Shown here: one piece after another, positions 27,732 through 29,781 of the stretch
Layout of the letters: each line of letters opens with the position of its first letter
Numbering within the stretch: the first letter of the stretch is position 1
DNA from: Chitinophagaceae bacterium
GTDB lineage: Bacteria; Bacteroidota; Bacteroidia; Chitinophagales; Chitinophagaceae
Assembly (NCBI GenBank): GCA_004322425.1
Contig: SCVJ01000041.1
Location: 1 to 44,863 of the forward strand
DNA length: 44,863 nt
Direction: 5' to 3'
The notes under the pieces: model-generated
The model's database searches: none
The model's input: the letters and a program-made list of their open reading frames with translations, nothing else
What the model was told of the DNA's origin: nothing
Made by a program: the position numbers and the translations under genes

Positions 27732-28502
27732 ATGAATACAAAACAAGAGATTGTAAAAAATTGGCTTCCTCGTTATACTGGAGAAAAAATCAAAAATTTT
27801 GGCAAGTATATCTTACTTACCAATTTCAGTAATTATGTTTCCCTTTTTGCTAAATGGAATAATGTTCCCTTTATGGGACAGGATAAACCCATGCAATGTG
27901 CAACGGCAGGAGATATTAGCATTATTAATTTTGGAATGGGAAGCCCAACAGCAGCAACAATAATGGATTTACTAACTGCAATTGAACCAAAGGCGGTTTT
28001 ATTTCTTGGAAAATGTGGTGGCCTGAAAAAAAGAAATAAGCTAGGTGATTTGATTTTACCCATTGCAGCCATTCGGGGCGAAGGAACAAGTAATGATTAT
28101 TTTCCCAAAGAAGTACCGGCTTTACCGGCATTTGCTTTACAAAAAGCAGTTTCTACAACCATTCGTGATAGTAAGATTGATTATTGGACAGGTACAGTTT
28201 ATACAACGAATAGAAGAGTGTGGGAGCACGATAAAGCATTTAAAGAATATCTTCTAAAAATTAGGGCCTACGCAATCGACATGGAAACAGCTACTATTTT
28301 TACAGTTGGATTTTATAATAAAATTCCTACGGGTGCTTTGTTATTGGTAAGCGACCAGCCCATGGTTCCCGATGGTGTAAAAACAGAAGCCAGCGATAAA
28401 AAAGTAACTTCGAAATATGTTGACACACATCTGAGAATAGGAATCGAATCACTAAAACAACTGGTCGATGATGGGTTGACGGTACGCCACTTACGCTTTT
28501 AA
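27732..28502 (+). CDS. amn: AMP nucleosidase (short Bacteroidota form)
   Basis: A 256-residue phosphorylase-fold protein that would cleave AMP to adenine and ribose-5-phosphate. Seen: INFGMGSPTAATIMDLL, FLGKCGGLKK, AIRGEGTSNDYFP and the nucleoside-binding segment AIDMETATIFTVGF, then LVSDQPM with the catalytic Asp. It lacks the extra N-terminal domain of E. coli Amn, which fits the shorter family annotated as AMP nucleosidase in Bacteroidota. A different purine-nucleosidase specificity is possible. Divergent from the HsdR-N gene; queA follows 229 bases later. Confidence 0.8.
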   Translation: MNTKQEIVKNWLPRYTGEKIKNFGKYILLTNFSNYVSLFAKWNNVPFMGQDKPMQCATAGDISIINFGMGSPTAATIMDLLTAIEPKAVLFLGKCGGLKKRNKLGDLILPIAAIRGEGTSNDYFPKEVPALPAFALQKAVSTTIRDSKIDYWTGTVYTTNRRVWEHDKAFKEYLLKIRAYAIDMETATIFTVGFYNKIPTGALLLVSDQPMVPDGVKTEASDKKVTSKYVDTHLRIGIESLKQLVDDGLTVRHLRF

Positions 28503-28574
28503 CAATTAGCCCACTAAAGATTCCTCGTATCAAGAACGCAAATTTTTGATTTTCGTTTCTTAGTTTAAATATCT

Positions 28575-28582
28575 TACTTTTG
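28575..28582 (+). promoter_or_regulatory. Candidate -7 box of queA
   Basis: TACTTTTG matches TAnnTTTG. Transcription would begin near 28590, leaving a leader of about 140 bases before the queA ATG. No TTG at a normal -33 distance. Confidence 0.55.
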
Positions 28583-28597
28583 CCCACTTTTAAAACT

Positions 28598-28712
28598 AGC
28601 CAAAAAATGACTCAGCCCGGTGCCGTAAGACCGGACTCATTCGTTTCGTTTTAATTTCGAACAGCGATTTTTTTTCAGCTACTTCATCCGCATAGGGTTT
28701 GTGTCATTGGCT
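28598..28712 (+). ncRNA. Candidate structured 5' leader of queA (no known class recognised)
   Basis: A closing stem can be drawn between AGCC/AATGAC (28598-28601, 28606-28611) and GTCATT/GGCT (28703-28712), ten base pairs with a four-A bulge. Inside it a hairpin CCGGT/ACCGG (28617-28621 with 28630-28634) has an eight-base loop. A 15-codon frame ATG...TAA (28607-28654, MTQPGAVRPDSFVSF) lies in the same segment. queA starts 20 bases after the closing stem. This is inference from pairing by eye; I do not recognise a preQ1, SAM or other described class. Confidence 0.35.
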
Positions 28713-28731
28713 TTAACGAATTTTTCAACTT

Positions 28732-29781
28732 ATGAAACTTACCCAATTTCGCTTCGATTTACCGCTAAATCTTATTGCTCAAACACCTGCTAAAAGACGC
28801 GAAGATGCCCGAATGATGGTAGTTCATCGCCATACAGGTCAAATTGAAAACAAACACTTTCGCGATGTGCTAGATTACTTCGACGACAAAGATGTATTTG
28901 TTGTGAATAATACAAAAGTTTTTCCTGCTCGCATGTATGGAAGAAAAGAAAAAACGGGTGCAAAAATTGAAGTTTTCCTTTTAAGAGAACTCAATAAACC
29001 CAATCGTCTTTGGGATGTTATTGTGGATCCTGCAAGAAAAATTCGTGTTGGCAATAAATTATATTTTGGCGACAATGAAGAGTTGGTAGCAGAAGTTATT
29101 GATAATACAACTAGCCGAGGAAGAACAATTCGCTTTTTATGGGAAAATTCTGAAGAAGAGTTTCGTGGTATGTTGGAAAAATTGGGTGAAACACCATTGC
29201 CTAAATATATTAAGCGTAAACCCGATGAAGAAGATAAAGAACGTTATCAAACCGTTTATGCAAAATTGGAAGGCGCTGTTGCTGCTCCAAGTGCTGGCTT
29301 ACACTTTAGTCGCGAATTGATTAAGCGTTTAGAAATAAAAGGTATCCGTTTTTCAGAAATAACTCTACATACCGGACTTGGAACATTTCGTCCCATTGAA
29401 GTAGAAGATTTAAGCAAACATAAAATGGACGGTGAGTATTATAAAATTGATGACATTGCTTGCAATATTGTAAATAAAGCAAAAGAAAAAGGGAATCGTA
29501 TTTGTTCAGTTGGCACAACAACTATGCGCGGTCTTGAAACTTCTTTTACTGCAAATAAATTATTGAAACCTTCTGAAGGATGGACGAATACTTTCATTCA
29601 TCCCCCGTATAATTTCAATATTGCTGATTCATTAATTACGAATTTCCATTTACCTACAACAAGTTTGTTAATTATGACCGCTGCTTTTGCCGGCTATGAG
29701 TTGACGATGGAAGCTTATAAAAAAGCGATAAAAGATAAATATCGTTTCTTTAGTTATGGCGATGCGATGCTCGTAATTTAA
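28732..29781 (+). CDS. queA: S-adenosylmethionine:tRNA ribosyltransferase-isomerase
   Basis: A 349-residue enzyme that transfers the ribosyl part of SAM to preQ1 at position 34 of tRNA to give epoxyqueuosine. Motifs: [22 protein letters not shown] at the N-terminus, [26 protein letters not shown], the [13 protein letters not shown] loop, [11 protein letters not shown], and the end [18 protein letters not shown]. It covers the full family length. Its tRNA targets include tRNA-Tyr(GTA), present in the window. It converges with lysC, 15 bases between stops. The 5' leader may be regulatory. Confidence 0.95.

Follow-up and report, generated by a model that had tools for sequence, protein, structure and literature searches.

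The queA leader in the window

The DNA analysed here, called the window, is a stretch of 44,863 nucleotides from a Chitinophagaceae bacterium. On its plus strand lies queA (28732..29781, ATG at 28732), which codes for an S-adenosylmethionine:tRNA ribosyltransferase-isomerase of 349 aa; the product matches the solved QueA structures 1yy3 (E 2.9e-97) and 1vky (E 3.1e-96). An earlier sequence-only reading had described a long structured leader ahead of this gene, with a -7 box, a closing stem and an inner hairpin, all of which were read exactly in the sequence.

The -7 promoter box of the Bacteroidota type TAnnTTTG (TACTTTTG) is located at 28575..28582 on the plus strand. The bases right after it (28580-28596 in the window) are alike in relatives, about TTTGCxCACTTTTAAAA, and perhaps represent a conserved initially transcribed region. 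The closing stem, P1, consists of ten pairs and a four-A bulge, formed by AGCC(AAAA)AAUGAC (28598..28611, plus strand; AGCC, AAAA bulge and AATGAC in the DNA) and GUCAUUGGCU (28703-28712), and its pairs are doubly changed in relatives. The 3′ strand of P1 (GTCATTGGCT, 28703..28712, plus strand) ends 19 bases ahead of queA, so that the spacing of 20 bases reported before was close but not exact. Inside P1, hairpin H2 (28617..28634, plus strand) was recognised from the sequence and from comparison of leaders. It is built from the arms CCGGU (28617-28621) and ACCGG (28630-28634) and the loop GCCGUAAG (28622-28629), the core of which, CCGUAA, occupies 28623-28628. The 15-codon ATG-TAA frame noticed earlier is also present on the plus strand (28607..28654).

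The folding energy of the window leader is unremarkable (-30.1 kcal/mol, z -1.33; reached by 22 of 200 shuffles), and the minimum-energy fold contains the closing stem and lacks the inner hairpin. What raises the leader above chance is conservation, because the hairpin and the promoter box recur before queA in relatives, in agreement with the earlier expectation of a conserved segment, and not folding energy. A search of 28500-28760 against Rfam at E up to 10 returned four chance-level matches to unrelated families.

The CCGUAA hairpin loop as the conserved unit

For comparison, a family set of 195 Chitinophagaceae genomes was used, with a QueA or QueA-like match in 194 of them. Leaders were read for 110 of these 194 genomes, comprising 30 best-match loci, 60 genomes without exact H2 at queA and 20 with exact H2 (in two of the latter, G060 and G127, the exact site is elsewhere); this sample is neither random nor complete. 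The first 30 leaders all have CCGTAAG 50-211 bases before queA. Many further leaders, most of them picked from genomes in which queA lacks an exact H2, carry another 5′ hairpin, H1 (UCAUG-CCGUAA-CAUGA), alone or beside H2. What H1 and H2 have in common is the loop CCGUAA. The window's copy of the element consists of H2 and P1 only: its leader has a single CCGTAA, within H2, and H1 is absent.

Two tests free of selection for pairing were applied. In a blind scan that treated every hexamer as a possible hairpin loop, CCGTAA ranked top in the family with 83 of 110 leaders (runner-up 4), and outside the family it was found in 16 of 87 leaders (runner-up 3), while mononucleotide shuffles give an expectation of 0.0033 per set; six class leaders added to the 87 afterwards had no CCGTAA loop. 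The reverse complement TTACGG formed a hairpin loop in none of the family leaders and once outside the family (1/1). The second test counted CCGTAA near queA that lies in a hairpin, one mismatch being tolerated. This held for 107 of 115 occurrences within the last 160 bases before queA in the family and for 17 of 17 within the last 60 outside it, against 0/24 and 0/11, respectively, for six scrambled hexamers of the same composition. With a stem of at least three pairs the CCGUAA loop occurs in 102 of 110 family leaders, with at least four in 94, and the promoter box starts 24-68 bases before the first such loop in 97 of 110 (48 in the window). CCGTAA is absent in seven of the 110 leaders (L081, L091, which reads CCGAAA, and L099-L103), and in L083 it is present with a broken stem. 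As loop variants, L105 (G127) retains H1 and has an H2 loop reading GCCTCTAAG, and the H1 of L091 carries CCGAAA instead of CCGTAA.

Beyond the family the hairpin is found in a minority of leaders. Among other families of the order it is present in 8 of 27, with AT-rich stems unlike those of the family, and missing in 19 (27 of 30 genomes were covered; L150, L161 and one genome without match were omitted, and L162 is a paralogue). At class and phylum level it occurs in 9 of 66 leaders and is missing in 57. These nine are all eight first-seen leaders of one family, f24, and a four-pair hairpin in another (L182), so the 16 outside-family loops are not independent, eight coming from f24. Further f24 leaders, from 46 of 59 genomes with a match (genomes already seen excluded; start unclear in L383 and L384), show it in 26 of 46 and lack it in 20. 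Outside the class it was found in none of 8 leaders. This spread may reflect common descent, the stem being turned over, or the element may have arisen repeatedly, which in itself would speak for a fixed partner. In a leader of another class family (L318, G609, family f28), the queA start context CACATG follows CATGTGGCC, an arrangement like that of the start-codon helix in the Chitinophagaceae, yet CCGTAA is absent.

The stems, by comparison, are rebuilt. Family inner stems include UUCAUG/CAUGAA, GCCGCC/GGCGGC and CCGGU/ACCGG, and eight distinct ones were counted outside the family, for example AAAAG/CUUUU, GAAUU/AAUUC, UUAAA/UUUAA and AAAAU/AUUUU. Covariation of P1 and the hairpin, proposed earlier as a check, was evaluated on an alignment of 20 leaders with a structure derived from those same sequences. 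Paired cells amounted to 83.8%, compared with 22.5-45.3% in six slid versions and a shuffle mean of 79.1%; none of 500 shuffles reached 83.8%, and none reached the 16 cells changed on both sides. These two measures were exceptional. Neither the count of pairs changed on both sides (6 of 16, matched by 30 of 500 shuffles) nor that of further pair types (15, matched by 407 of 500) was. The same held for larger sets: doubly changed cells numbered 106 in 47 hexaloop rows and 30 in 38 octaloop rows, with none of 500 shuffles as high, and the number of doubly changed pairs was not exceptional (421 and 477 of 500 shuffles). Since rows of alignment A2 were picked for CCGTAA with a stem of at least four pairs and those of A3 for a stem of at least three, the paired percentages of A2 and A3 are inflated; far-upstream sites in L116 and L181 were dropped from both. 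Judged by these sequence comparisons, the stem changes with its pairing kept, and the putative recognition unit in the queA leader is shown to be the CCGUAA hairpin loop on changing stems.

Placement at queA and at its start codon

Genome-wide specificity was searched with the exact H1 and H2 stems. The H1 pattern gave 59 sites, one each in 59 of the 195 family genomes, and 57 of them are at queA: 55 by coordinates of the QueA match, plus L303 and L304, which have a queA-like start 68 and 82 bases past the loop. The two remaining sites fall within open reading frames of 165 and 448 codons. For the reversed control pattern, 13 sites were counted. For H2, 57 sites were found in 55 of 195 genomes, 51 at queA (50 by coordinates, plus L313) and 6 elsewhere, with 22 sites for the reversed control. 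No exact hairpin was detected in 30 upstream regions of tgt (300 bases before the TGT-domain match). The near-exclusive occurrence of both exact forms at queA favours feedback by the product of the gene over a sensor of a shared metabolite. In a phylum sample, exact H1 occurred in 9 of 395 genomes, five times at queA in the family; the other four (L129-L132) were rejected as chance sites, with no queA-like start within 330 bases and nine occurrences of the reversed control. A whole-genome search with a covariance model, R1, hit 12 of 298 genomes. It was judged too insensitive because 15 candidates were scored per genome; no use was made of its misses, and the hits (L032-L043) were kept out of the counts. 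A further QueA-like match, of about 32-42% identity in the listed cases, is present in many order and class genomes, including G000. It often falls into two pieces of one longer frame, as might be expected of a QueA-like protein carrying an insertion.

In part of the leaders the hairpin overlaps the start codon. Nine of 110 family leaders, and ten of 79 named loci, have the queA AUG in the 3′ arm of the hairpin, following the loop after one base (79 of 80 named loci were covered, L215 having no upstream sequence; at least 7 of the 79 are also members of the family set). Examples are UUCAUA-CCGUAA-UAUGAA in Chitinophaga filiformis, C. qingshengii and C. solisilvae, and UCAUG-CCGUAA-CAUGA in two Sediminibacterium. 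In both f24 sets together, 23 of 34 loops are at -11 or -14, and there the 3′ arm extends into the AUG or stops at it. Among 94 long leaders, 28 have a start-codon helix of at least six Watson-Crick pairs with an upstream segment, compared with about 1.3 when the upstream sequence is shuffled. The start contexts CACAUG (14), CUCAUG (10), UACAUG (3) and CAGAUG (1) each have their own complement, the pairings including CACAUG/CAUGUG, CUCAUG/CAUGAG and UACAUG/CAUGUA. At this six-pair cut no such helix was found in the other 66 long leaders, among them that of the window, in which nothing beyond 4 pairs was detected. Inspection by eye suggests that the 3′ arm of P1 often supplies this upstream segment, while its 5′ arm shares bases with the 3′ arm of H1, so that H1 would preclude P1, and P1 the start helix. 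Calculated in isolation, three hexaloop hairpins are weak (-1.0, -2.2 and -3.9 kcal/mol) and would therefore need a binder to block ribosomes; this argument does not apply to the octaloop H2 of the window (-8.7 kcal/mol).

A candidate translational operator and its possible binder

Rfam contains an entry, RF03093 ('queA RNA'), that resembles the leaders described here. Its source is presumably the paper by Weinberg and others from 2017; no paper about RF03093 was found among the open-licence papers searched. Like the element studied here it is located upstream of queA in the same bacterial family (25 of 25 matches at queA). Its first hairpin is UUCAUG-CCGUAA-CAUGAA (model positions 1-18), the 3′ end of the consensus reads CUGAAUGUGGCUAU, and the consensus loop of its second hairpin is uuAaaU, not CCGUAA. 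The model exceeded its cut-off (52.6 bits) in 13 of 195 family genomes and gave matches at E <= 0.001 in 25 of 195, with weak matches being lost to the search filters. Rfam types the entry 'Gene; sRNA', although the 25 matches in 195 genomes all sit in the queA leader. Among 20 relatives' leaders searched with it, it scored 72.6 bits in L067, 44 in L044, 36 in L093 and 26.3 in L053, and found no match at E up to 0.5 in the other 16, among them L047, the only leader run from those with a start-codon hairpin or from other families. The window gave no match at the gathering threshold, none at E up to 10 (28500-28760) and none elsewhere in its genome: its leader shares the CCGUAA loop and the place before queA with RF03093, but lacks the first hairpin and fails the score. 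On this comparison RF03093 is best described as a partial description that covers a sub-lineage of the same leader, with H2-only leaders such as that of the window outside it.

The hairpin is almost certainly a genuine cis-acting RNA element, and there is good reason to think that it acts on translation start. We lean slightly towards reading it as a CCGUAA-loop translational operator, perhaps bound by QueA. Under this proposal, a factor that recognises the CCGUAA loop would stabilise the hairpin and thereby control initiation of queA translation. In leaders whose start codon sits inside the hairpin (Chitinophaga, Sediminibacterium and others), the AUG would be blocked directly. In long leaders the bound loop would shift the RNA towards a fold that pairs the start-codon context (CACAUG or CUCAUG) with a segment such as CAUGUG or CAUGAG, in many cases supplied by the 3′ arm of P1. 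The best candidate for the factor would be QueA, which in excess would repress its own mRNA. The many relatives without the hairpin count against the operator reading, as do the 66 of 94 long leaders without a start-codon helix and the one TTACGG hairpin outside the family.

QueA must bind the anticodon arm of GUN tRNAs. The CCGUAA loop is identical to positions 32-37 of tRNA-Tyr (CUGUAA) at five of six bases, with C in place of U33, and the anticodon loop of the tRNA-Tyr in the window reads CUGUAAA. According to PMC10639084, QueA acts on preQ1 at the wobble position of tRNA. Its substrate is preQ1-tRNA, whereas the hairpin loop has an unmodified G, and the likeness to an anticodon arm is short and imperfect, with C for U33 and a loop of six or eight bases compared with seven. 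On balance, the case for QueA itself as the binder is about evenly poised. The same RNA operator could be served by another partner, Tgt or some RNA-binding protein, which we regard as rather unlikely, even though the data reveal the loop and not the partner. Counted for Tgt is its recognition of hairpins derived from the tRNA-Tyr anticodon loop, as given in PMC13416341. A title cited there concerns the part played by U33 when Tgt recognises U-G-U, so that Tgt is less likely as the partner of a C-G-U loop; the hairpin is also missing from the upstream regions of tgt. For a general RNA-binding protein one would expect further targets, yet exact sites are mainly at queA. Pairing of the loop with a second RNA, such as a tRNA or a small RNA that carries UUACGG or UACG, appears very unlikely: a fixed single-stranded loop suits a kissing partner, but the distribution, mainly at queA only, gives no hint of one.

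The earlier suggestion of a riboswitch or a leader peptide was plausible from gene function and from the presence of the frame. Control of queA by a metabolite (preQ1, S-adenosylmethionine or a queuosine precursor) would fit an enzyme that uses SAM and preQ1-modified tRNA, as well as the several helices and possible alternative pairings in long leaders. As the same reading had also stated, the leader is unlike known preQ1 and SAM classes: no Rfam match was found at the gathering threshold, and the preQ1-I, II, III and SAM covariance models, like other Rfam riboswitches, had no match in the window or, at E up to 0.5, in the leaders of 20 relatives. Several lineages have one six-base-loop hairpin near the start codon with no conserved pseudoknot tail visible by eye, and exact hairpin sites are rare away from queA. 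A six-base loop on arbitrary stems, which in its start-codon form measures about 18 bases, looks more like a protein-binding operator than a riboswitch, and the riboswitch is accordingly doubtful, in our view improbable. For DNA bound by a transcription factor one may cite that H1 (TCATG-N6-CATGA) is an inverted repeat near the promoter box; however, the asymmetric loop is kept while the half-sites change, in the family every such loop lies on the coding strand (TTACGG 0), and the hairpin moves to the start codon, which leaves this reading highly improbable. Attenuation by a leader peptide has the ATG-TAA frame of the window in its favour, and P-G-A-V-R-P is readable in close relatives. The frame is not conserved, an in-frame ATG before the loop being present in just 14 of 46 H2 leaders, and the loop flanks are entirely different in other lineages. 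The peptide was rejected as hardly credible, and the frame is considered accidental.

If the proposed translational operator is placed among known systems, two comparisons are of interest. The E. coli thrS mRNA contains a translational operator that imitates a tRNA anticodon arm. Such operators are mRNA hairpins of tRNA-binding enzymes with an anticodon-like loop and feedback on the own mRNA, and the window hairpin likewise lies in the leader of the gene of a tRNA-binding enzyme; the queA case differs in that the enzyme modifies tRNA, its binding is putative, and loop size and position 33 are unlike a real anticodon loop. A yeast aminoacyl-tRNA synthetase mRNA with an anticodon mimic is described in PMC6542539, and the queA leader can be likened to it as well. 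According to PMC11625349, the preQ1 riboswitches are leader RNAs that control queuosine genes, as is proposed for the queA leader. They differ from it as pseudoknots binding preQ1 (classes I-III).

To our knowledge, no enzyme that modifies the tRNA wobble position has been described with an autoregulatory RNA operator, and none was found among the open-licence papers searched. It is a tentative idea, a little short of even, that a tRNA-modifying enzyme regulates itself through mRNA hairpins copying the anticodon loop of its substrate tRNA, with six loop bases kept class-wide across families while the stem is rebuilt and, in some lineages, the start codon swallowed. A bolder form, in which the loop G itself would be exchanged and modified in the mRNA, the leader thus reporting queuosine flux, is very unlikely. 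With the hairpin loop as its unit, a little-explained Rfam entry would become a testable operator. The loop was seen in Chitinophagaceae as well as in further families of their order, and the class adds at least one more family; its start-codon form, about 18 bases long, could easily be tested in a reporter.
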